Virus record (IMG/VR): IMGVR_UViG_3300041411_000271
Location: 1 to 32,490 of that record
Reading direction: 5' to 3' (one strand)
Source: a virus
Length of the DNA: 32,490 nt
Made by a program: the position numbers and the translations under genes. A model generated the notes under the pieces. It searched no databases, was not told the origin of the DNA, and worked only from the letters and a program-made list of their open reading frames with translations. Shown here piece by piece: positions 755 to 31,224 of the stretch (its first letter is position 1; each line of letters opens with the position of its first letter).

Positions 755-2671
755 TCAGAAAGTTTCCCAGTTTGCTTCCGACACCCTGACTTGTGATTGA
801 GGCTTTAACACGGGCGTGGCCACCTGAACCTTCGGCGTCACCAATCCGGCAGAAGGCACACGGAAAACGGCAACGGTTTTCTCAAGCTCGAGTGCCTGCT
901 GTTCAAGACTGCTGGCCGCTGCGGATGACTCCTCAACCAGCGCAGCATTCTGCTGGGTTGTGGTATCCATCTCCGTCATGGCCTGCGCAATCTGAGTAAT
1001 CCCGCGATTCTGTTCGTCCGACGCAGCGGCAATTTCGCCCATGATATCCCTCACCTGCGTCACGGACCTGACGATATCCTCCATCGTATTGCCGGCACGG
1101 TTAACCAGCTCGGTACCGTTACTTACCCGGCTCAGCGACTCACTTATCAGCGTCTCAATTTCTTTTGCAGCAAGCGAACTGCGCTGCGCAAGGTTGCGGA
1201 CTTCACCGGCAACCACGGCGAATCCACGCCCCTGCTCGCCAGCCCGGGCCGCCTCGACCGCGGCGTTAAGCGCAAGAATGTTCGTCTGGAAAGCGATACC
1301 GTTAATGACGGAGATGATTTCGCCGATTTTACCTGAACTCTGACTTATTCCACCCATTGTGCTAATCACGTCACTGATGATATCCCCGCCACGGCTGGCA
1401 TTGTGTGATGCGTCGGTGGCCAGCTGGCTGGCGTGATGCGCGTTCTCCGCATTCTGCTTAACAGTAGATGTCAGTTCTTCCATGCTGGCAGCAGTCTCAA
1501 CCACGGCAGCCGACTGCTGTTCTGTACGTGAGGACAGATCGGTGTTACCGGCCGCAATTTCAGAGGAGGCACGGGCGACGTTATTCACGCCGTCCCTGAC
1601 CCGGGAAATGATGTCACGCAGGCTCTGGTTCATGGTTCCCACGGCAGTCATCAGCTCGCCAAGCTCATCGGTGCGGGAGCTGGTGATTTCTGACGTCAGG
1701 TCACCTTCAGCAATACGCTTTGCAGACGAAAGCGTTTCCCTCAGAGGAACGGTGATGCTCCGCGTCATTCGCCATGCAATAATTAGGCTGAGAATGATAC
1801 AGGCGAGGGTTGCCAAACCAATCTGCCAGAGTGCGGTGTGGATATACTTCTGAGCCATTTCTGACTGAAAGAACGCGAGCCCTGTGATGGCGCTATTCAG
1901 TTTGCCTGCCGCTGCGGTCATTTCCTCTGAGGCCAGGCTTTCAGCCCGCACCGAAAGGAGATAATTATTTAACAGGGCGGAACCCGATAACGTTTTCTGG
2001 TCCACTTCCGCCAGTATTGCAGCGAGCGCATTGTCAGAATCGCCTTTGAGCTGGTTAACAAGCGGAGAAATCGTGTCCCTGATCCCAGTAAATTTATCCA
2101 GCGCGACAGACTCTGGCTTTCTGATAAAGGCCTGGATATAAAACGCTGCCTGCTCTGTTTTGAAACTGAGAGAAAGCAGGGGCGCAGCAATCCCTGCGGG
2201 GAGAGAAGCCTGACTGGAAGCCAGTTTTTCAGCCAGTGAGGCCAGATCCATCGTGTTTATCTGACTCAACGCGAGTGCAGCCCTGTCACTGCTCTCAAGA
2301 AAGGCCCGACGTTTTTCCTGATACTGCGTCAGAACCACGCCCAGGAGAGAAAGCCTCTCACTTCCTTCGGCTGACCACGAGTACTTATCGAGGCTGGTTC
2401 GTAAAGCAAACAGCTGATTCATCGCCTCGCCGTTAATGTCGATAAACTTTTTATCCCGGGTGTACTGAAAAAGCGTGCGGTTAAGCCTGGCTTTTGCCAG
2501 CGTGTCCAGCATCTGAACGGTAACATCTCGTTTGGCTGAGTTTTCCTGAATACTTAAAAAACAGCGAAACGCCAGCGCTGATATGATAACAGAGGCCAGT
2601 ATGACCAGCGTGAACCCTAACCCCAGCTTGCCGCCTATTTTTAAATTCGTTACTTTTTTTATAATAATCAT
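755..2671 (-). CDS. Methyl-accepting chemotaxis protein, Tsr/Tar type
   Basis: Inner-membrane chemoreceptor of 638 aa. It senses a periplasmic ligand and controls the CheA-CheW kinase complex. In order: a membrane helix at about residues 12-34, a helical periplasmic domain to about 275, a second membrane helix at about 277-302, a HAMP linker, and a long cytoplasmic coiled coil. The conserved hairpin tip around 458-505 includes [20 protein letters not shown]. The last five residues are NWETF, the tether that binds the methylation enzymes CheR and CheB, so the receptor should be methylation-competent. The ligand cannot be told from sequence. The start is supported by GGGGG about 9 bases upstream, and a sigma-28-like promoter lies 60 bases upstream. 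This is probably a host gene, outside the phage. Confidence 0.95.
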
Positions 2672-7164: not shown

Positions 7165-7827
7165 TTAATGAATTCTCACCCAGACCAGTGTGCCTTCCGG
7201 TTTGACGGCTTCGATCGCAGCATAAATCTGTGCATCCGTAACACTGCCCGTAACCATTCCCCGGGAGACATATTGCGCGCGCGAAGCACTGCCATAGCCC
7301 GCTGTTGAAATTCCGTAGCCTGCCACCCGGGGGATGCCCTGACCGCGCGGACGACTGACGTCCACAAATGCCTGGTAAGGCAGATAACGTGATCCATATC
7401 CACCCGCAGCACCATAACCGATTGCCGGCCCGCCATACGCGCCTGTATCTGCAGGGCGTGACGGCTCGAACACGACTGGTGTGTTCCCGGTCAGCATCTC
7501 AATAATGTTGGTAACGGCCTGACGCGTACCCCGCTCGCGAAGCAGATTCATTTTTATCTGGATCCGGAAGGGGTCATCAGACATACCTGCACGTCTGGTA
7601 AGGCTAGTGCCAAAGAAGTCATAGGCTGCAACGTCCAGCCAGCCATCGCTCGCCGTGGAGATGCGAGTCTGCTTACGTGCGTAGCGATATAGGGTGTCGC
7701 ACCAGGATAACGCTGTGGCACAGGCTGAAAGCACACCTTCGAAAATCGGTGTGTCATCACTGAACCAGCCTGGCGGCAGCAGCGCATGAAACCGGTTGAG
7801 AAAGTCGTTCCTGTCACCTTTAGCCAT
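7165..7827 (-). CDS. Baseplate protein, Mu gp48 / P2 gpI-like
   Basis: A 220-aa structural protein in the position held by Mu gp48, between baseplate J and the fibre. The N-terminal half (LLPPGWF, DVAAYDFFGTSLTR, RERGTRQAVTNIIEMLTG) is typical of this tail family. A Gly/Tyr/Ala-rich middle (about residues 127-180, repeats of YGG/YGA/GYGS) is probably an extended linker. The start ATG follows the J stop immediately (TGAATG), with GGTGAG upstream, which indicates coupled translation. It probably joins the baseplate edge to the fibre. Confidence 0.8.
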   Translation of the reverse strand: MAKGDRNDFLNRFHALLPPGWFSDDTPIFEGVLSACATALSWCDTLYRYARKQTRISTASDGWLDVAAYDFFGTSLTRRAGMSDDPFRIQIKMNLLRERGTRQAVTNIIEMLTGNTPVVFEPSRPADTGAYGGPAIGYGAAGGYGSRYLPYQAFVDVSRPRGQGIPRVAGYGISTAGYGSASRAQYVSRGMVTGSVTDAQIYAAIEAVKPEGTLVWVRIH

Positions 7828-8937
7828 TCAGCTCACCGTAATCTGACCTTTGCGAATAACCTGTTTTGACGAGGCCGCAAGGTCAGCTTTACCGTCATTG
7901 AGGGTAAGGTATGTCACGTTCGTGACCAGTGGACTGGCCGCATAGGCCACTCTGATGATCCGGGTGTAGGCCAGAAGCTGTCCGGGATGAAGGTCTGCAA
8001 TGTATTGCGATACGGCCGCCTCAATCAGACCGGCCACCTTAGAGTGATCTGCTTCATTATCTGTCGTAAATGAAAGTATGACCTTTGCATAGATGACCAC
8101 CGGCCTGAAAACCCCAAAGGTGATGGTAAATCCGCGCACAGCGTCAATAGCCCTGTATGCACGATCAAGCAATTCGCGTGGCGGCATACCGCTGCCATCA
8201 TCAATAACGGCATAAAAATAGCCCGGCTGTGGTCTACCGTCCCAGGAGACATTCTCGGTCAGGGTATAGCTGACGCCGCGCTGAACATTGCTGAGCGCAA
8301 ACGCAATCGCCGCTCTTGTGGCTTTTGATAATGAAGCGATCCACATTCTGAATCGCGCGCGGAAATCGTCGTCAGATTCAGCGTCCTGACCGCCCACAAA
8401 CGCCGCTGGGTTAGTCACCTTATCGACATATAACACAGAACCCGTAATAAGGGTGACGGTACCCGGCTGCGCATTACCTGCAGCGCCTGCGGTATCTGCC
8501 CTCACCGGTACCTCCAGGGAAATGACACCCGCTGCGATGATATAGCCCGACTGTCCGGGCCGGTCGGCAATAACCGTGTAGCTCTGTGTGCAATCGAGGG
8601 TGGTTATCTTTGTCCCGACCGGGATAAGGGCCTTGCTCGCGGGTGTAAGACGGGAGAACGTCACGTTACCGGCAGCCTGTACAGCAGAGCGACGGAAAAA
8701 ACCAAAGTCTGCCATCCAGCTGTCCAGGTCTTCGCCGGAGCATGTCGCCGCGCGGGTTGTCACCAGCAGCTTTACAATCAGCTGCTGGAGCCACATGACC
8801 ACACCGGCATTGGATTCAGCCAGTGAACGCAGAATGCTCCCGATGGAAAAATCCACCAGCTTTGCTGCCCGAGCCTGTATCGCTGTGACCTGTTCGCCGA
8901 CGAGTTCAGTGAAGGATTTGACGTTGAGCGATGACAT
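7828..8937 (-). CDS. Baseplate wedge protein J
   Basis: A 369-aa member of the baseplate J-like family (Mu gp47, P2 gpJ, T4 gp6), which builds the baseplate wedges that reshape on contraction. The N-terminal pattern SFTELVGEQ...AKLVDFSIGSILRSLAES and the central GGQDAESDDDFRARFR are family hallmarks. I chose the ATG at 8937 because GAGG lies 7 bases upstream, inside the stop region of the gp25-like gene. An in-frame start at 8955 would overlap that gene. It lies between the gp25-like and gp48-like genes as in Mu. Confidence 0.92.
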   Translation of the reverse strand: MSSLNVKSFTELVGEQVTAIQARAAKLVDFSIGSILRSLAESNAGVVMWLQQLIVKLLVTTRAATCSGEDLDSWMADFGFFRRSAVQAAGNVTFSRLTPASKALIPVGTKITTLDCTQSYTVIADRPGQSGYIIAAGVISLEVPVRADTAGAAGNAQPGTVTLITGSVLYVDKVTNPAAFVGGQDAESDDDFRARFRMWIASLSKATRAAIAFALSNVQRGVSYTLTENVSWDGRPQPGYFYAVIDDGSGMPPRELLDRAYRAIDAVRGFTITFGVFRPVVIYAKVILSFTTDNEADHSKVAGLIEAAVSQYIADLHPGQLLAYTRIIRVAYAASPLVTNVTYLTLNDGKADLAASSKQVIRKGQITVS

Positions 8938-11036: not shown

Positions 11037-12026
11037 CTAACTCGCCGGGCTGGTGGGTATTTTCAGCGTGTGAATGCCGCTCAGCTGCGGATCGGCCAGG
11101 TCATTGGCATCGGCAATACTGGTCCATAAAGAGGCGTCCCCATACTGCTCTGATGCCACCTTATACATATTGCCACCGGACAACGTTACCGCTCTGACGC
11201 CATTGGCGGCCTGACCTGAATTTACATTTTTGTTAAGCCTGCCCAGCACATTCTGAAGATGATACAGGGCCGGAATGCGGGTCGCGTGGTCTGACTGAAG
11301 AAGCAGGTTACTGACGGTTTTTGATATGGGATTGCCGGGTACCAGTCCACCCAGCGAGGTAATCTCCAGTGCCGCAGCCTCGAGCAGTGCCAGCTCATGC
11401 TGAATGATGTTCCGGGCTGCAATCAGGGGTCTGACAACGGACTGAATCTGCGCAACAGTAGCATGCGCAAAGTCCGTTACCTTCTTAACCGCCTGATGCA
11501 GATTTCTGATTGCCTGCGTAACGGCATCAACGTTGATGATACTGGCAAGGCCCAGCGCGCGGCCCAGGTCGCTGTCAATCAGCTCCCGCAGCGCCCCGGT
11601 CAGGGCATCCACTTTCGCTGGCGAGCCCTCATTGCGGACAACCGCGACCTCAATGGAATAGGGGCGGCGCCAGACATATTCGTAGACCGGACTGAACGCG
11701 GTGATGACCACCGTGAAACGATAGTCATCGAGCGTCAACAGAACCGGGTGCCCGGCATCCCGCATGCGTTCAAGCGCGCTCACCCGCTCACCCGCCTGCG
11801 AGCCCGTGATGATGCCAGACCAGGTCAGTGGCTCATACTCCGTGCCCAGCACATCAATAATGCGGTGGCCGCCAATCAGCTGATGCTGGACGGTTTTCTG
11901 CCTGCCGTGAATGACAACCTGTTCGGGGACTTCAAACTCCATGAATTCGAAGTCGCCTAACATCAGGCGGGTCACAGTCGGATCAATGCCCGGCGCAAAC
12001 TGCGAAAGAGAATTCAGAAGGGACAT
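11037..12026 (-). CDS. LysM-containing hub protein (Mu gp43 position)
   Basis: A 329-aa protein. The N-terminal beta-rich domain (GDFEFMEFEVPEQVVIHGRQ) resembles tail proteins that cap the tube near the hub. A central helical stretch follows. A C-terminal LysM-like fold occupies about residues 283-326 (MYKVASEQYGD...WTSIADAND...LKIPTSP). In Mu this slot holds gp43, formerly called DNA circularisation protein N. LysM modules in baseplates bind tail parts or peptidoglycan. The ATG at 12026 gives the family-like start but has no good ribosome site; the frame is open to 12092. The gene is separated by 153 bases from the DsbA-like gene, unlike its tightly packed downstream neighbours. Confidence 0.75.
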   Translation of the reverse strand: MSLLNSLSQFAPGIDPTVTRLMLGDFEFMEFEVPEQVVIHGRQKTVQHQLIGGHRIIDVLGTEYEPLTWSGIITGSQAGERVSALERMRDAGHPVLLTLDDYRFTVVITAFSPVYEYVWRRPYSIEVAVVRNEGSPAKVDALTGALRELIDSDLGRALGLASIINVDAVTQAIRNLHQAVKKVTDFAHATVAQIQSVVRPLIAARNIIQHELALLEAAALEITSLGGLVPGNPISKTVSNLLLQSDHATRIPALYHLQNVLGRLNKNVNSGQAANGVRAVTLSGGNMYKVASEQYGDASLWTSIADANDLADPQLSGIHTLKIPTSPAS

Positions 12027-12132
12027 ACTGCGAGTGCCTGTTTCAGATATGACTGACAATGAAAATAGGAGCCGCCATCTGTCGGGAGGCATGCGAATTT
12101 ACAGGGCCTGACCGTTCAGGCTGCCTGCAAAA

Positions 12133-12146
12133 GATGTCCGGACATC
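12133..12146. repeat. 14-bp perfect palindrome beside the DsbA-like gene
   Basis: GATGTCCGGACATC, followed on the minus strand side by a 7-base T run at about 12159-12165. It lies in the unusual 153-base gap between the DsbA-like gene and the LysM hub gene. It could be a regulatory site or a junction mark; the sequence alone does not tell. Confidence 0.4.
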
Positions 12147-12179
12147 AAATATGGTGCAAAAAAAGCTCCTACCCAGACG

Positions 12180-12872
12180 TTATTCAGTCCGGATTTTATT
12201 CTGCTGCAGGTCAGCCAGATGATGACTGTTATTTATTTCGGCCAGTGCGATGTTGACGGCCTCTTCCAGCGAGTCATAAGTAACCTCGCCAGGCAGCACC
12301 CTGTCCCCGATGATGGTTGTCGGCGTACCTGTGTAATGAAGCCGTCTCATTAACGCCTTATTCACTTCGATAATGTTCTGTGTATCAAGCGGATAAGTTG
12401 TGACTTTCATTCCGGCAGCATGCAGGGCTGAATAAATACGCAGGTCGTCACCCATACCGCTGTCTGACATCAACGCATGGTGAAAAGCATGGAATTTTTC
12501 AGGTTCTTCGATCCAGACGGCAAGCGCCATGCGCGTAACAGCGGTTGACGCTTCCGGACCGTATGAAATCAGTTTGTAGATGATCGCAATCTGAGGATAG
12601 GCCTTTAAAAGCTTTTCCAGATTACTGTCCAGTCGTTTGCAATGAATACAGTCGTAGTTCACGAAACTGACAATTTTCAGTACAGGTTGCTCAGCACCGA
12701 CGACAGGAGAGAGCGGATCGTTCAGCAGTTTATTTCGCATGAGTGCATCTGTCTGCGATGGACGCTGCGGCTGTTCTGCAGTAATGCCAGTGTTTGCCTG
12801 ATGATGCGCCACCCCGGCAGTTGCCTGCCCTGCGCCCATGAGCATCAGCAATAAAACGAATTCATTAAGCAT
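12180..12872 (-). CDS. Secreted DsbA-like thiol oxidoreductase in the tail operon
   Basis: A 230-aa protein with an N-terminal signal peptide (FVLLLMLMGAGQATAG, cut near residue 20) and a thioredoxin fold with an inserted helical domain, the DsbA/DsbG/Com1-like class. The active site is CIHC at residues 75-78, and the matching cis-proline loop is TGTPTTIIGD at 181-190. It should therefore make or shuffle disulfides in the periplasm. The ATG has GGAG 8 bases upstream and overlaps the end of a short open frame. Tail proteins assemble in the cytoplasm, so an exported oxidoreductase here is odd. It may serve the lysogen, a secreted partner, or genome entry. No transmembrane partner like DsbB is nearby. 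Confidence 0.85.
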   Translation of the reverse strand: MLNEFVLLLMLMGAGQATAGVAHHQANTGITAEQPQRPSQTDALMRNKLLNDPLSPVVGAEQPVLKIVSFVNYDCIHCKRLDSNLEKLLKAYPQIAIIYKLISYGPEASTAVTRMALAVWIEEPEKFHAFHHALMSDSGMGDDLRIYSALHAAGMKVTTYPLDTQNIIEVNKALMRRLHYTGTPTTIIGDRVLPGEVTYDSLEEAVNIALAEINNSHHLADLQQNKIRTE

Positions 12873-12960
12873 TATCCTGCTCCACAGATAATCTCACAGT
12901 TGCCGTAACGGAACGCAGTGACTGCGATTTTCGAAAAGCCTTAAACAGTGAAATCAGCAT
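12865..12960 (-). CDS. Possible 31-aa peptide overlapping the DsbA-like gene
   Basis: A short frame starts at ATG 12960, encodes a hydrophobic stretch followed by basic residues, and ends in TAA inside the DsbA-like start, an 8-base overlap typical of coupled genes. The same frame is open back to the tape measure stop (about 13065) through a hydrophobic Leu/Pro-rich segment, but no ATG, GTG or TTG is found there. It could be a small membrane protein, or the tail of a longer gene whose start was lost. I do not recognise it. Confidence 0.3.
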   Translation of the reverse strand: MLISLFKAFRKSQSLRSVTATVRLSVEQDNA

Positions 12961-13068
12961 GGCCAAAGCGGCGTTCAGAATTCTGAATACCGGCAGCTGT
13001 GAAAGCAGTTGAGGAAGAAGAGGCAGATAAGGCCTGCCCGCAGGAGTGTGAATTAAACCAGGCTGTCA

Positions 13069-15351
13069 TCAGGGCAGAGAGAGGCTGCCAGCCTGACCGG
13101 GATACACCATCAGCATGGATGGATCGAAGGTGCTGGTGGATGACGGTGCTCTGGCTGCCTGCTTACTGATGCCACTCATGACAGTGGCCACCAGTACCTG
13201 TCGACCTTCATGCGTCATCAGCAGATTTACGGGCTGCCCGTTATTAACGCCAGAAACTGGCGGTATCGGGGGATACCTGCCGGTTTTACGAAACGCCTGC
13301 TCACGAAGATGCTGTCTGTCGAAGTCCGCCTGGGCAGGCATCCAGGGTTTATAGGCAACGCCGTGGTCAAGCGCATTCTGACGTGCCAGTCTGCCACGCT
13401 CTGCCATTTCCCGGCTCTGCGATACCGTGCTGCCAGGATACAGGGCGGCAAGCGTTACGGCAGAGATTATGCCCGGCAGACCGGTCAGCGCGGCGGTGAG
13501 TCCTGTCAGACCAGTAGTGGCGCTTCTGCCAATAAGCAGGTCAATGCCCCAGCCCGCCAGTTTAAGTGGTGTCAGCAGTGCGCCCGCAGCATGTCTGATG
13601 AGCCAGAATCCGCCACTGATGCCTGCAAGGCCGGTCACGGCCAGCGCCGCCTGCCCCGCAAACTTCGCCATCTCAGGATGCCGGTGCGCAATGTCTGCCA
13701 TCTGCTGAAGAGAGTGCGTGAGCATGTCTAGACCCTGTGTGAAGGTGTCCAGCAGGCCGCCATCTTTCCCCATCACCCGCTGCAGGTCCTGCCATTTCTT
13801 GTGAAAGTCGATCGCTTTGCCGTTGTAAGTGCTGCCGACCGCACTATAGGCATCATTCAGGCCGCGCGCGACTCCGTAGGCATCAATGCGGTGATGAATG
13901 GTCTCAAGCTGTTTGTCGATGAGACTGAACATCTTGCCGCCGGTACGCCCGAATATCAGGGCGTTCTCACGCTGCTTCTGTTCTTCGGTGTAATGGTGCC
14001 TGCGGTAGAGTGGCAGGATGACGTTTTCATAGTATTCGACAGGCGACTGGCTGAAGAGCTGCGCGTTTATAAGTGGATTGCCCCGGAAACGCTTCACGCC
14101 GCCCAGGCTGTTTAGCTCTATCTTGCTGGCATCCCAGATGCCCATCGTCATCAGGTCGTGGGTGACCTGATTAGGCAGCTTCACAATCCCGTTTAACCGG
14201 TTGTAAGCAGTCATCAACGCATCACCCGCTGAACTGCCCTTCAATTCACCGATAATCGGCTCCAGCTCAGCAAACAGGGCTTTATTGCTCAGGTTAAAGG
14301 CCGAGGTGCCCGCTTTGGCCGTAAACTGACGGTACTGGGTGAAATCGACATTGCCGCCTGAAGACTGAATGGCACGGAACGCCGCGTCCATCAGTTCATT
14401 AAAACGCTCCGGGCTTTTCAGTCCACCCGCCGTCTCGGTGAAGCGCAGCATATCCATCTGCTTCGCCGTGCTGGCCTCACGCTGATGCTCATCCAGCCCG
14501 CGGGATGCGAAGGTGATACGCGCCATCACCGGCGCCGCCAGTTTCGCTGCGCGCAACTGCTCATCCAGCGTTTTTGCACCCGATTCGCTGAATACCCCCT
14601 GCGCTTCCACCAGATATTTCAGCATATCTGTGGCCGAAGAGCCCCGGACCCGGGTAGTTTCAGCAAAACGCAGTGCTTCATCTGTCGCCGCCTGACCCAT
14701 GCCGAACTGCCTGAACTTCTCGGTCATGGTCTGGTAGCGGGCTGCCTCATCAACAAAGCCCTTCAGCAGTCTGAAACCCAGATAGCCGGTGGCCAGATTG
14801 GTCATACCCTCTGAATATGTGGCTCCGCCCGGTAGCCGGCCATTACCGCCGCCGTGGCCAGAACCGCCACCACCCCATCCACCAGGGGGGACGCCATTAT
14901 GCCAGCCATGCCACCAGCCACCCTGTCCTGAAGGCGGAAGCAGTGCGAGTCTCCGGCCATGGGTGCCATATCCACCGCTGCCACCTGCAGCGGCGGCCCC
15001 CGCTGCCAGAACGGGCAGTGTCATGGCTGCACCGTAACCACCCGCCAGCAGCGGGGCATTACGCGAGGCCCGGTTGATACGCTGTGTCTGGTCAGCAATC
15101 TCGCGGATGGCACCGGCATATTCACGCGCACCGCGGGACGCGCCAGAGAACTCATTATTGAGGGAGCGATTGAGTGCCCGAAGTGCGGATGTTGCTTCAC
15201 GGGCCGCACGGGTCAGTGCTTTGATGTTCCTGGTGATGGTGACGAACTTCTTATTCAGTTCAATCGCATCACGGCTCACCTGCAGCAGGTTGCGCGTAAT
15301 CTGGTCATCCAGCGCCAGCCGCACGGCTACGCGGTAAGCCTGAATATCCAT
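13069..15351 (-). CDS. Tail tape measure protein
   Basis: A 760-aa tape measure that sets tail length and is ejected ahead of the DNA. The N-terminal 100 residues are helical and charged, as expected for the coiled coil inside the tube. Residues about 102-173 are extremely rich in Gly, Trp and His (for example PPGGWGGGGSGHGGGNGR), which is unusual. A family-like domain follows (YLGFRLLKGFVDEAARYQTM), then hydrophobic Ala/Leu/Gly segments at about 600-670. The start at 15351 has GAGG upstream; the frame's earlier 23 codons run through a terminator hairpin and are not used. It ends in tandem TGA TGA. The gene follows the SIR2 cargo, not the chaperone as in Mu. Confidence 0.9.
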   Translation of the reverse strand: MDIQAYRVAVRLALDDQITRNLLQVSRDAIELNKKFVTITRNIKALTRAAREATSALRALNRSLNNEFSGASRGAREYAGAIREIADQTQRINRASRNAPLLAGGYGAAMTLPVLAAGAAAAGGSGGYGTHGRRLALLPPSGQGGWWHGWHNGVPPGGWGGGGSGHGGGNGRLPGGATYSEGMTNLATGYLGFRLLKGFVDEAARYQTMTEKFRQFGMGQAATDEALRFAETTRVRGSSATDMLKYLVEAQGVFSESGAKTLDEQLRAAKLAAPVMARITFASRGLDEHQREASTAKQMDMLRFTETAGGLKSPERFNELMDAAFRAIQSSGGNVDFTQYRQFTAKAGTSAFNLSNKALFAELEPIIGELKGSSAGDALMTAYNRLNGIVKLPNQVTHDLMTMGIWDASKIELNSLGGVKRFRGNPLINAQLFSQSPVEYYENVILPLYRRHHYTEEQKQRENALIFGRTGGKMFSLIDKQLETIHHRIDAYGVARGLNDAYSAVGSTYNGKAIDFHKKWQDLQRVMGKDGGLLDTFTQGLDMLTHSLQQMADIAHRHPEMAKFAGQAALAVTGLAGISGGFWLIRHAAGALLTPLKLAGWGIDLLIGRSATTGLTGLTAALTGLPGIISAVTLAALYPGSTVSQSREMAERGRLARQNALDHGVAYKPWMPAQADFDRQHLREQAFRKTGRYPPIPPVSGVNNGQPVNLLMTHEGRQVLVATVMSGISKQAARAPSSTSTFDPSMLMVYPGQAGSLSLP

Positions 15352-15373
15352 GAGAACCTCGTTTTTCGGCCAT

Positions 15374-15394
15374 AAAAAAACCCGCCTGAGCGGG
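15374..15394 (-). terminator. Intrinsic terminator in the tape measure leader
   Basis: On the minus strand CCCGC, loop TCAG, GCGGG, then seven T, about 23 bases before the tape measure start. It is the second of two terminators between the SIR2 module and the tape measure. Confidence 0.75.
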
Positions 15395-15420
15395 TGAAAT
15401 TGAAATCTGAAGACACACAT

Positions 15421-15579: not shown

Positions 15580-17514
15580 TTATTTTTCATTAGTTTGTAG
15601 TTCATCTTCCACTTCAATACTTAATGGCTCTTGGTTAGCTACATCTATGGTAGTTAGTTTAGCTAACTCTTCTGTGCTTGCAGTGCTTTCGCTGTCAGTT
15701 TCGGAAAAATGCTCTTCATTTTTAGGTTCAGGATATGATGCAAAATCAACGTTTTCATTGAGTTCTTCAGGAACGTCAAATCCCTTTTTAGTAGCTAATT
15801 GAGTCAATTTTTCATAAACATCAGAGTTTATCAAGGTAAAAATTGGCATGGTGTGAGTCAAAACAGCGTTCATCTCATGTTCACTAAGTAAATCTGCAAG
15901 CGCCATTATAGCATCACTATTTTCACTTAAAATAGCATAGCCAAAAGCTTCCCAAGTATTTTTGCTTTCTCCAGCTTTAAGAAGTTTTGATTCCACTAAC
16001 TCGACTAACTCAGGAGTAAGTTTAATTTTCTTTAATTTGTAACAAAGCACTTTATTTAGGAATATAAAGCTTTTATTGCCTTCAGTTGAGGACTTTTTGT
16101 CCAACCATTCTAATAACTCTAGAGCTTTCTCATAATAACCATCTTCAATTAACTCTACCGATGAACTTATAAGCTCGCGTACTTCATTTTCAATCACTGG
16201 ATGGTACGCATGAATCTGTGTTAATGCTTTATTGATATCTTCAATGCTGCTTAGTTTGGAACCGATTTTTACATATAAGGCCAAGACAGATAAAGAAGGT
16301 GTATTTACTAAGGCATTTTCAATATGATGTAGCGCTTCAGCATATTCTTCGTTATAAAATGCACCACGCGCCAAAAGTATGCTGGGCGTAGCAAAAATAT
16401 GCAGTTGCTCACCATCTTTTGTAAAATTAGCATCTCGCACTAAATTTAGTAATGCATTAGTAACACCATCAGGAGGAAGATCTATAACGAGATTTTCTAC
16501 CTTTTTACTAAGCTCTTTTAATGACGACAGTACCGCATCAACTCTTCTCACCTGACTCGCCAAAAGATTCATATCAGCTTTGATGATTTCACTGTCGTCA
16601 TCTGTTTCATCCGGATCAGTATATTGCGGGAAATATTTATCAAGTTTTTTTGCAAGAGCTTTGTATGGGTTAGCAACTTCATCCTGAAGCTTGCAACCCA
16701 AAGCATTATGAAGCTCGGCCATAAAATCGTCAAAGCTACTAATTTCAATGAGATGGAATCTAGGAAACCTTGCTAGATTAGTTAACTCCTCTGAAAGGAC
16801 TGTATCCTTTCGAACACACCAGTAAATTCCATGGGGAAAGGATGAGTCTGAATGCAGCAAAGTATTCAACGTATCCATTATTGACCTGTCATTACCCGCA
16901 TAACCAATGACTATCATTCCAAACTCACTGGCATACTGACGGAACTTAGATCTCATATTGTCTTCTAAAGACTCAAGTTCCCGTATTGTGTTCTTAATGT
17001 TATCGAAGAGAAAGTCACCATGAACCTTTATTATTTTTGGACGATTGGAAGTCAATCGAATGCTTTTAATACTAGAATCATGAGCACACACCACCGGCCT
17101 TAGATTAGTTGAAAACGTATAGCACGCCTCATTAATAAGGTCATCAAAATTAGTGGTGAATATCGTATTAAAATGTTTTAACTTAAGGAGATTTACAAGA
17201 TAAACATACCCCCAAGATGGTACACCTTGAACGATACAGTTCTCTATAAATTCACGCCTCTGTGTAGGTTGGTCGTAGAGCCTCTCGAAAAGCTCTGAAT
17301 ACTCGTTGTTTTTATCAAACCAAGGCTGCGCTTTGAGATGCTTTTCACCATACATTGAAACGAATACAGAACGCCACTCTTTGATAAGTTGACTCCCACC
17401 CTTAATACCACTTGTTACACTCGCACCAGCGCCTAAGAAAAGTGTAAAATTTGGATGGTGATCTTTTGTTGACAATAATATATTAATTAGATGCTGTTGA
17501 GGTTTAGTGTCCAT
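15580..17514 (-). CDS. SIR2-domain, TPR-like protein; probable phage defence effector
   Basis: A 644-aa protein. The N-terminal 270 residues form a SIR2-like NAD-binding domain: FLGAGAS (26-32) for the dinucleotide loop, TTNFDD (120-125) with the catalytic-type Asn122, KVHGD (163-167) with the catalytic-type His165, and GYAGND (204-209). Residues about 310-345 are charged and coiled-coil-like. Helix pairs resembling tetratricopeptide repeats lie at about 376-410 and 453-490, and the last 60 residues are strongly acidic. SIR2 domains in systems such as DSR, Thoeris ThsA and SIR2-HerA destroy NAD+ when phage infection is sensed, with the other domain acting as sensor. The same role is inferred here. 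AT-richness and an own promoter and terminator mark it as cargo within the late operon. No second large partner gene is adjacent. Confidence 0.82.
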   Translation of the reverse strand: MDTKPQQHLINILLSTKDHHPNFTLFLGAGASVTSGIKGGSQLIKEWRSVFVSMYGEKHLKAQPWFDKNNEYSELFERLYDQPTQRREFIENCIVQGVPSWGYVYLVNLLKLKHFNTIFTTNFDDLINEACYTFSTNLRPVVCAHDSSIKSIRLTSNRPKIIKVHGDFLFDNIKNTIRELESLEDNMRSKFRQYASEFGMIVIGYAGNDRSIMDTLNTLLHSDSSFPHGIYWCVRKDTVLSEELTNLARFPRFHLIEISSFDDFMAELHNALGCKLQDEVANPYKALAKKLDKYFPQYTDPDETDDDSEIIKADMNLLASQVRRVDAVLSSLKELSKKVENLVIDLPPDGVTNALLNLVRDANFTKDGEQLHIFATPSILLARGAFYNEEYAEALHHIENALVNTPSLSVLALYVKIGSKLSSIEDINKALTQIHAYHPVIENEVRELISSSVELIEDGYYEKALELLEWLDKKSSTEGNKSFIFLNKVLCYKLKKIKLTPELVELVESKLLKAGESKNTWEAFGYAILSENSDAIMALADLLSEHEMNAVLTHTMPIFTLINSDVYEKLTQLATKKGFDVPEELNENVDFASYPEPKNEEHFSETDSESTASTEELAKLTTIDVANQEPLSIEVEDELQTNEK

Positions 17515-29936: not shown

Positions 29937-30194
29937 TCACAGATACTTAATCGCCAGTGCTTTCACATCGTCCTTTGCGGCTTCGCCCAGCAGAGCAACC
30001 CCACTTTCAACAAACGCCAGCGCAGCTTCAAAATCATGAACGCCCACTTTGACTTCAGCTGATTGGGGCATCTGCGCTGCTTCGGCAGAGAATCCGGACT
30101 GTTCAACAACTTCGTCATTCATTGATTCTGACATTTCATTACTCCCTTCTTCAGGATGAATAAACTGGCCTTTTAGCCAGCTGAGGATGTTCAT
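29937..30194 (-). CDS. Small protein coupled to Rz1
   Basis: An 85-aa protein starting at ATG 30194, which overlaps the Rz1 stop (ATGA). A further start is possible at the later MSESMNDE (residue 21). The C-terminal part (VGVHDFEAALAFVESGVALLGEAAKDDVKALAIKYL; central HDFEAALAFVESG) is an acidic helix bundle. Small proteins of this kind follow the lysis genes in many lambdoid prophages, but I know no function. Confidence 0.65.
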   Translation of the reverse strand: MNILSWLKGQFIHPEEGSNEMSESMNDEVVEQSGFSAEAAQMPQSAEVKVGVHDFEAALAFVESGVALLGEAAKDDVKALAIKYL

Positions 30195-30493
30195 TTCTGC
30201 CGTTCCCGTTCGATTTGCCGGATCGCGGCCTTGTCGTGGTTGCACTGCTCCAGAGCGTTAAGCAGACGCTCATTCAGCTCCAGGCTGTCTCCCCAGGTCA
30301 ACGGGTCAGGAATCAAAGGCACAGCGCAGTCAGCCAGCAGACTCACCGGTATCGGTACTGGCGGAACTGGTACGTACTTTGTCCCGGTGCGCACGCAGCT
30401 GGTCAGCAGCAGGACGAGGCACAGGTTCAGTGGCACAGCTGTTACCCCTGACCAGCTTTTGTATAACCACCACCCTGCGCTCACTCTCTTCAT
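30191..30493 (-). CDS. Rz1-like outer-membrane spanin lipoprotein
   Basis: A 100-aa lipoprotein encoded largely inside the Rz gene in another frame. The lipobox is LLTSC, with Cys at about residue 33, followed by a Pro-rich stretch (KYVPVPPVPIPVS) typical of Rz1. I chose ATG 30493 (AGG upstream), which gives the positive charges needed for export. A GTG at 30436 with AGGGG upstream would give a shorter leader without charges. It pairs with Rz to fuse inner and outer membranes in the last lysis step. Confidence 0.78.
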   Translation of the reverse strand: MKRVSAGWWLYKSWSGVTAVPLNLCLVLLLTSCVRTGTKYVPVPPVPIPVSLLADCAVPLIPDPLTWGDSLELNERLLNALEQCNHDKAAIRQIERERQK

Positions 30494-30731
30494 CGCCTGC
30501 CTGATTTGCATCCTGAGTTGCCCGGGCAATGTCGCTGAAGAGGGCTGTTGCCCTGAGGACATTAGTCGCGAGCATCTCTGCTGAAGCTTTTTGCTGCGCC
30601 AGCTGCCTGTTCTGCTGAGTGATCACGACCTTCGATAAGGACTGAAGCTTCAGGGCGACGCTTAGCGCGATGACCAGCAGTAGCAGGCCTGTGATGGTAA
30701 CGGCACCCCACTTAACGCGGCTTAAGGTCAT
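30330..30731 (-). CDS. Rz-like inner-membrane spanin
   Basis: A 133-aa i-spanin. One N-terminal membrane helix (WGAVTITGLLLLVIALSVAL) is followed by a coiled-coil periplasmic domain (VVITQQNRQLAQQKASAEML) and a charged end. Start ATG 30731 lies inside the endolysin end (20-base overlap), with GAG upstream. It is unrelated in sequence to the lambda-type Rz relic at 29255, so two spanin lineages met in this locus. Confidence 0.78.
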   Translation of the reverse strand: MTLSRVKWGAVTITGLLLLVIALSVALKLQSLSKVVITQQNRQLAQQKASAEMLATNVLRATALFSDIARATQDANQAGDEESERRVVVIQKLVRGNSCATEPVPRPAADQLRAHRDKVRTSSASTDTGESAG

Positions 30732-31224
30732 CGCTGCTCTCCGACAGGCAAAGTGCACGTTCAGTTTCGCGGCGTTTCATCAGCCCTCTCCACCTCCTGC
30801 CACCGGCAAACACCCAGCGGCGCAGTTCATTGCAGGCACCTGTCGTATCGCCTGCGTTGAGTTTTCTCAGAAGGGAAGATCGGGAAAAAGCGTCAGTACC
30901 GGTGTTATAGGTAAAGCTGTAGAGTGCAGCGCGCTGGTAATCGCTGAGGGGGACAGTGACCAGACTGTCAACAGCTGCCTGAACGGGTTTCAGGTCTTCA
31001 CGCAGCAGGCTGTCGCACTCACTGTTGGAATAGGTTTTGTTACTGACAATATCGGGGCCGGTGTGACCATCACAGACGGTGAGCACACCAGCGACATCCC
31101 GATAGGGAACATAACGACGCCCTTCCAGACCATCCGGACCGCCGAGCAGCGTAATTGCCAGAGTCAGGGCACCCGCACCGGCTGCAGCCAGAAGTCTGTT
31201 ACGCAGCGCGGACGATATCACCAT
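30712..31224 (-). CDS. SAR endolysin (glycosidase, P21 R type)
   Basis: A 170-aa muramidase related to the P21 endolysin. The N-terminal Ala/Gly-rich weakly hydrophobic segment (LLAAAGAGALTLAITLLGG) is a signal-anchor-release domain, which lets it reach the periplasm inactive until the holin opens the membrane. The catalytic region GLEGRRYVPYRDVAGVLTVC contains Glu34 and Asp43, followed by Thr48 and DGHTG, the E-D-T triad of this family. It cleaves the glycan strands of peptidoglycan. Confidence 0.9.
   Translation of the reverse strand: MVISSALRNRLLAAAGAGALTLAITLLGGPDGLEGRRYVPYRDVAGVLTVCDGHTGPDIVSNKTYSNSECDSLLREDLKPVQAAVDSLVTVPLSDYQRAALYSFTYNTGTDAFSRSSLLRKLNAGDTTGACNELRRWVFAGGRRWRGLMKRRETERALCLSESSDDLKPR

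Follow-up and report, generated by a model that had tools for sequence, protein, structure and literature searches.

The window analyzed here, i.e., the whole stretch of 32,490 bases held as an IMG/VR virus record, is a prophage of Pantoea type that combines a P22-like capsid with a contractile tail and carries a gene for a thioredoxin-fold protein of the ScsC type between its tape measure and hub genes. In our judgment, this is probably an accessory ("moron"-like) gene whose product, a stalkless ScsC-type enzyme, serves periplasmic thiol or Cu(I) chemistry. A single capture would have brought it to the ancestor of a Pantoea prophage family, in which it would since have occupied a cargo slot between the two tail genes. 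Of this reading, the analysis shows directly the identity and fold of the protein, its conserved cysteines, the purifying selection on its gene, the dispensability of the gene, the single clade formed by the phage copies, and their co-divergence with the tail genes.

Identification of the ScsC-type protein

The window codes for a P22-like coat protein, a portal, a terminase, a contractile sheath, baseplate parts, Rz/Rz1, a lysozyme, and a P21-type holin. The gene of interest, its motifs, and its two neighbors lie as follows:

12180..12872, minus strand: ScsC-type thioredoxin-fold protein of 230 amino acids, ATG start (reading frame, Pfam, structure matches, model)
12639..12650, minus strand: codons of the CIHC active site, residues 75 to 78 (sequence, alignment with relatives)
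12318..12329, minus strand: GTPT, residues 182 to 185, the Thr-cisPro loop of ScsC type (sequence, alignment)
13069..15420, minus strand: tape-measure-like protein, upstream neighbor, no Pfam or PHROG match
11037..12092, minus strand: LysM/hub-like protein (phrog_21362), downstream neighbor; the conserved start MSLLNS lies nearer 12026

The reading frame, the CIHC motif, the cis-Pro loop, and the location between tape measure and hub genes, all reported in an earlier note on this DNA, were confirmed in the sequence, while the description of the product as DsbA-like proved too broad, its relatives in both sequence and fold being ScsC proteins. In particular, Pfam returned Thioredoxin_4 (E 1.6e-11) and DSBA (E 2.3e-11), both above the Pfam cut-offs, and the protein had no match in PHROGs at 1e-3 or in NCBIfam. 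A sequence search against solved structures placed Salmonella ScsC (4gxz, 3.3e-36) and Proteus ScsC (4xvw, 1.9e-33) at the top, with E values (3e-36 to 3e-33) far beyond chance, whereas DsbA chains reached only an E of 0.005. The AlphaFold2 model, built with 14 phage sequences as input, had a mean pLDDT of 80.8, with residues 10 to 32 below 50, and its best fold match was again 4gxz (rmsd 1.7, TM 0.93 by target, 39% identity). Given its closest fold, its CXXC, and its Thr-cisPro loop, the protein belongs to the ScsC catalytic-domain family. DsbA proper, whose marks we take to be CPHC and Val-cisPro, was ruled out by CIHC, Thr-Pro, and the poor E value of the DsbA chains.

Ahead of the catalytic domain, the model contains only helices 3 to 11 and 40 to 50 and the low-confidence stretch between residues 10 and 32. 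Query residue 34 pairs with residue 10 of the Salmonella chain and with residue 43 of the Proteus chain, an offset from which we conclude that the N-terminal stalk is missing in the phage protein.

Comparison with known ScsC proteins

The catalytic fold, the CXXC, the Thr-cisPro loop, and the lack of an N-terminal trimerization stalk are shared with ScsC of Salmonella Typhimurium (4gxz), which is described in an extract of PMC8900818 as a monomer that binds Cu(I), is held in the reduced state by ScsB, and is neither an oxidase nor an isomerase. Different from it, the phage protein presents CIHC instead of CPYC with a dipeptide that varies among copies, is borne by a prophage, and has no scsB beside it. 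The ScsC proteins of Proteus mirabilis and Caulobacter (4xvw and 7rgv), which are trimeric disulfide isomerases, share the catalytic domain, but the phage protein is without their long N-terminal trimerization helix or stalk. BcfH of Salmonella (7jve) is a fold relative and an ScsC-like protein encoded inside another operon, presumably a fimbrial one. However, BcfH is bacterial and, according to the same extract of PMC8900818, trimeric.

The chromosomal ScsC of Pantoea, encoded in the order scsB-scsC-scsD, belongs to the same family (37 to 41% identity), yet it forms a separate clade, is about 240 amino acids long with an N-terminal PFTPEQE extension, features CVFC, and is encoded beside a DsbD_TM protein in the inspected loci. 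No ScsB/DsbD-like gene was found beside the phage gene or among the window proteins scanned, and its neighbors are tail genes.

The active periplasmic thiol oxidoreductase proposed in the earlier note thus stands as to the fold and the cysteines, both of which are present in 26/26 intact phage copies, but the likely chemistry differs from that of DsbA, as the protein is of ScsC type and Salmonella ScsC is described as neither oxidase nor isomerase. For the latter reason, we would not expect the protein to complement a dsbA mutant.

Distribution among related prophages

The survey of viral contigs was anchored on the hub protein, since an ScsC query would have picked only carriers, and it returned 42 loci (designated L; Pantoea genomes are designated G). 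Three of them (L029, L033, and L055) stop short of the slot, leaving 39 informative loci; some contigs are near-duplicates, so that the counts refer to contigs and not to independent events. The same gene, which the earlier note had suggested looking for in tail operons of related prophages, is intact between tape measure and hub in 28 of the 39. In the remaining loci, it is cut by the contig end (L016), diverged and upstream of a different tape measure gene (L053 and L054, where it is only partly in view), deprived of its 5' end by a deletion (L036 and L042), truncated next to a signal peptidase gene (L061), or absent (five loci). In the last case, the slot holds either a 98-amino-acid exported protein with four cysteines (L045, L046, L059, and L063) or a 392-amino-acid protein (L043). 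Furthermore, all five distant relatives (L026 and L113 to L116) are without a slot, their tape measure and hub genes lying side by side.

Broken or truncated copies also occur in L025 and L065, as in L061, and a truncated one in the plasmid prophage of Pantoea JZ29; the decaying copy of L110 retains a 215-amino-acid frame with CIHF instead of CXXC and no GTP loop. Among 61 Pantoea genomes, the hub protein matched nine, one match (G300) being a fragment only. The other eight comprise two genomes with intact ScsC in place (G001 and G343), two with broken copies (G002 and G339), one with an intact but displaced copy (G316), one with only the 98-amino-acid gene (G326), one with no slot (G346), and one in which the slot is not in view (G338).

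Because the slot contents vary and distant relatives have no slot, the gene is dispensable cargo and not a part of the tail. It is not present in all members, as expected of a virion structural gene, being absent from 5/39 informative loci. The relatives in which it is missing, broken, or replaced show that it is not an assembly factor, in line with the earlier note, where it was considered not an obvious one.

The slot is also occupied by other genes. The 98-amino-acid exported protein, with its four cysteines (VCACPF...SSCGRR...PICY), is found with or without ScsC, and its L045 copy had no match in Pfam, NCBIfam, or the phage collection:

L045:7463-7759, L046:7465-7761, L059:7405-7701, and L111:5414-5710: 98-amino-acid four-cysteine protein

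Exported proteins of about 120 amino acids with a GTCT..TCPPGT cysteine pair are encoded near the tape measure gene (L053:414-785 and L113:5099-5461; longer in L110). A signal peptidase S26 gene is inserted directly after the broken ScsC copy in L061 (4926-5810) and also in L110. In L053, the tape measure and hub genes have between them a Clp-protease-like gene of the other strand (7347-7889, minus strand), and comparable genes occur in L054 and L061.

Upstream of the tape measure gene, the window carries a gene for a 644-amino-acid SIR2-domain protein (15580-17514, minus strand; GC, 36.8%), which matches phrog_23427 over nearly its full length as well as the SIR2 Argonaute-associated and PDC-S65 defense models; elsewhere this slot holds HipA-kinase and DUF3037, AAA ATPase, or DUF4760 genes. 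A methyl-accepting chemotaxis protein gene (755-2671, minus strand) lies beside the prophage end, and similar genes occur near the prophage in L017.

Large Pantoea plasmids carry copies with identities of 99.6% (one P. agglomerans record), 96.5% (two further records), 74.1% (Pantoea sp. Lij88), and 60.0% (P. dispersa), and four of these five records were inspected; in each of the four, the gene is preceded by the tape measure gene, or by what remains of it, and followed by the hub gene. In L017 (P. agglomerans pMMD61212-C_A), a prophage remnant that has lost its head, sheath, and tube genes, the lysis genes immediately adjoin the end of the tape measure gene; ScsC is intact at 99.6% identity.

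Outside these sets, 3 of 50,697 phage records matched, with no convincing phage locus among them: one is a 1.6-kb unverified contig whose product is nearly a copy of Salmonella ScsC, and the other two are fecal contigs with the gene among DsbD, redoxin, and FAD-oxidoreductase genes. In a broader scan of IMG/VR, 30 loci were retrieved, and none of their copies falls below 49% identity with the window protein; 28 were already in the sets typed here, and the 2 additional ones have the gene after the same tape measure gene. Because these scans rely on a handful of short motifs, they may overlook distant cases. A search of genome contigs with the single protein returned no relative, E. coli genomes gave no match, and the literature listings obtained contained no description of such a prophage-borne ScsC/DsbA-type gene, the "DsbA" in an extract of PMC7824862 being an unrelated DNA-binding protein. 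In the collections searched, there is no clear case outside this Pantoea prophage family.

Evolutionary history

A tree was built from 34 proteins, in which all 19 phage rows group together (99/95) and 8 chromosomal ScsC proteins of Pantoea fall outside this group; L109 is on a long branch, and its placement is unsure. The gene was probably captured once, by the ancestor of the Pantoea prophage family, as the tree topology suggests. The ScsC distances correlate with those of the hub (Mantel r, 0.775), gpD (0.826), gpV (0.798), and tape measure (0.616) proteins over 18 taxa, with 0/2,000 permutations in each test, and the tail neighbors correlate with one another about as well. The mean pairwise distance is 0.378 for ScsC versus 0.135 to 0.223 for the neighbors, i.e., ScsC diverges about twice as fast.

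The dN/dS of ScsC is about 0.17 to 0.25 in five moderately diverged pairs (W-L011, W-L019, L010-L011, L038-L039, and L047-L052, where W is the window), and that of the hub gene in the same pairs is 0.09 to 0.13; in particular, ScsC versus hub values are 0.246 versus 0.088 (W-L011), 0.207 versus 0.102 (W-L019), and 0.168 versus 0.110 (L047-L052). Two very close pairs gave ScsC values of 0.92 and 1.47 at a dS of 0.019. The single clade, the co-divergence, and the low dN/dS fit with one capture followed by long residence, during which a function would have been kept under looser constraint.

A host ScsC was found in 21 of the 61 Pantoea genomes, prophage copies and weaker DsbA-type matches being left out; in each of three inspected loci, its gene is flanked by scsB- and scsD-like genes. 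The genomes with intact phage ScsC in place (G001 and G343) show no second ScsC match and only a weak (35 to 36%) ScsB match, those with broken phage copies (G002 and G339) have host ScsB and host ScsC, G316 has host copies besides its displaced phage copy, G338 has host copies, and G326 has neither ScsC. This comparison covers seven genomes and is confounded by species, so it is a weak lead.

Variation of the active site

The earlier note had named two findings that would speak against its reading, a structural gene fixed in all relatives and present in virions, and active-site cysteines that are not conserved. The gene is absent from some relatives, as described above, and both cysteines of the CXXC are kept in all 26 intact phage copies. 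The dipeptide between them occurs in seven forms (IH, LE, TD, IQ, SH, MD, and KA), while in the host ScsC of Pantoea it is VF in 16/17 rows and QF in one, several rows being incomplete. Between 70 and 90% identity, the dipeptide differs in 23/78 phage pairs versus 0/71 host pairs, and between 60 and 70% identity in 157/161 phage and 14/15 host pairs, the pairs not being independent. Such wide variation argues against one fixed redox role. Moreover, acidic residues next to the second cysteine are unusual for an oxidase, and we therefore lean away from a DsbA role. It is possible to hypothesize, though we hold it improbable, that the cysteines are fixed while the dipeptide is repeatedly retuned, so that each prophage lineage would set its own periplasmic redox potential, e.g., against rival phages or to suit its hosts; if true, phages would possess in this enzyme a means of editing the thiol chemistry of the periplasm.

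Export signal and expression

The features that bear on export and expression are the following:

12816..12872, minus strand: putative signal peptide, about residues 1 to 19 (read from the sequence, relatives compared)
12873..13068, minus strand: 196-base gap from the tape measure gene to the ScsC gene, no sigma-70-type promoter match
12093..12179, minus strand: 87-base gap from the ScsC gene to the hub gene, cargo slot in some relatives
12974..12987, no strand assigned: 14-base perfect palindrome TTCAGAATTCTGAA; the surrounding stretch, downstream of the tape measure gene, is conserved

The signal peptide claimed in the earlier note is plausible as to its hydrophobic core followed by ATA|G, but it has no positive start: the first residues, MLNEF, have a net charge of -1, and the charge over the first six residues is zero or negative in 19/26 intact phage copies. 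Export of the protein, read from this leader, is therefore putative.

The palindrome TTCAGAATTCTGAA, which resembles VFRILNAALAML in one frame, was rejected as an operator of the ScsC gene. It is located behind the tape measure gene, and loci that lack ScsC have it too (exactly in L043, with one mismatch in L045 and L111, and with two in L046), and hence it is not tied to ScsC.

The lom and bor genes of lambda are phage morons. The phage ScsC gene resembles them as an extra late-region gene, lying between genes that adjoin in 5/5 distant relatives, with a GC content (49.1%) different from that of its two neighbors (56.4% and 58.5%) and dispensable among relatives. However, a scan of 11900-13200 did not reveal a promoter or terminator belonging to the gene: it gave 0 promoter matches versus 1.4 expected by shuffling and a single terminator-like match, at 13021-13039 and thus upstream of the gene, with 1.0 expected. 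The two gaps around the gene exceed most gaps in the operon. Since no promoter was found, the gene may be expressed solely as part of the late operon, and this would fit poorly with a benefit to the lysogen.

Proposed role and alternatives

According to the reading we favor, that of an accessory ScsC-type enzyme, the protein would be exported by Sec and would act in the periplasm through its CXXC, by thiol-disulfide exchange or by binding Cu(I) or thiols, with electrons that may be drawn from host DsbD or ScsB, and it would serve the envelope of the infected or lysogenic cell and not the virion. As to the benefit, tolerance of the lysogen to periplasmic copper or thiol stress ranks first, if tentatively, ahead of help in the folding of exported phage proteins late in infection, which is somewhat less likely, and of the exclusion of other phages, which is doubtful; the evidence for this order is thin. 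Against the favored reading stand the failure to find a promoter or an ScsB-like neighbor, leaders mostly without a positive start, the decay of some copies, the two dN/dS values of 0.92 and 1.47 in close pairs, and the varying dipeptide.

Two sets of lysis genes came into consideration as clients:

30712..31224, minus strand: phage lysozyme, presumably with a SAR-like N terminus, with four conserved cysteines; possible, not dedicated client
30191..30758, minus strand: overlapping spanin genes Rz and Rz1, whose periplasmic cysteines are conserved; possible, not dedicated clients

The strongest rival, which we regard as possible but clearly the less likely explanation, is that the protein is a late helper made with the tail operon, which would oxidize, reduce, or isomerize the cysteines of endolysin and spanins in the periplasm and so tune lysis. 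The lysozyme was matched in 24/24 records, with Cys 51, 70, 131, and 159 kept in 22/24, and Rz in 18, with Cys108 kept in 18/18; the lack of a promoter of its own would suit such a helper, and an extract of PMC13412088 cites a moderate delay of lambda lysis upon dsbA disruption. However, prophages in which ScsC is not intact (records behind L025, L043, L045, L046, and L059) have the same cysteines, from which it follows that lysis does not need ScsC, and a link between ScsC status and endolysin cysteines was rejected. Furthermore, most phages with such lysis genes are without ScsC, the three matches in 50,697 phage records being unconvincing. The exported protein of 127 amino acids, suggested in the earlier note as a substrate, was likewise rejected as a dedicated partner: it is found in 8/24 prophage-bearing records and does not follow ScsC, since the slot of one of the eight (behind L043) is without ScsC, while no match was obtained in several records whose ScsC is intact. 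Another of the eight matches, that in G361, contains internal stops.

An unlikely alternative is that of a superinfection-exclusion or entry factor, which would alter a periplasmic protein needed by incoming phages or act on parts of their tape measure or hub. The gene adjoins the tape measure and hub genes and co-diverges with them, a different type of tape measure goes with a strongly diverged ScsC (40 to 44% identity) upstream of it (L053, L054, and L109), and host dsbA affects some phages, as stated in extracts of PMC10249906 and PMC13412088, the latter reporting it to be a partial host factor for several phages of Klebsiella. However, linkage alone suffices for the co-divergence, since the neighbors correlate with one another as well, and L053 and L054 show only part of the ScsC gene.

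Still less probable is a passenger under decay without present use, to which the six broken or truncated loci (L025, L036, L042, L061, L065, and L110) and a selection looser than that on the tail genes would point; dN/dS is well below 1 in the moderately diverged pairs, both cysteines are kept in every intact copy, and the gene is intact in the remnant L017, which lacks head and sheath genes. Lastly, a fixed tail or virion gene with an incidental redox fold, suggested by its place in the tail operon of 28/39 informative viral loci and its divergence with the tail genes, is highly improbable and was rejected, the gene being absent in 5, displaced in 2, and truncated or broken in 3 of the 39, without a slot in 5 distant relatives, and endowed with a putative export signal and conserved catalytic cysteines.

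Implications

Cargo slots flank the tape measure gene on both sides in these phages, which makes them a useful hunting ground for accessory genes. If active, the ScsC-type protein would be a phage-borne enzyme working on periplasmic disulfides or copper, and it would allow a direct inquiry into a possible adjustment of the host's envelope redox state by prophages, for which the variable CXXC dipeptide provides a ready natural series.
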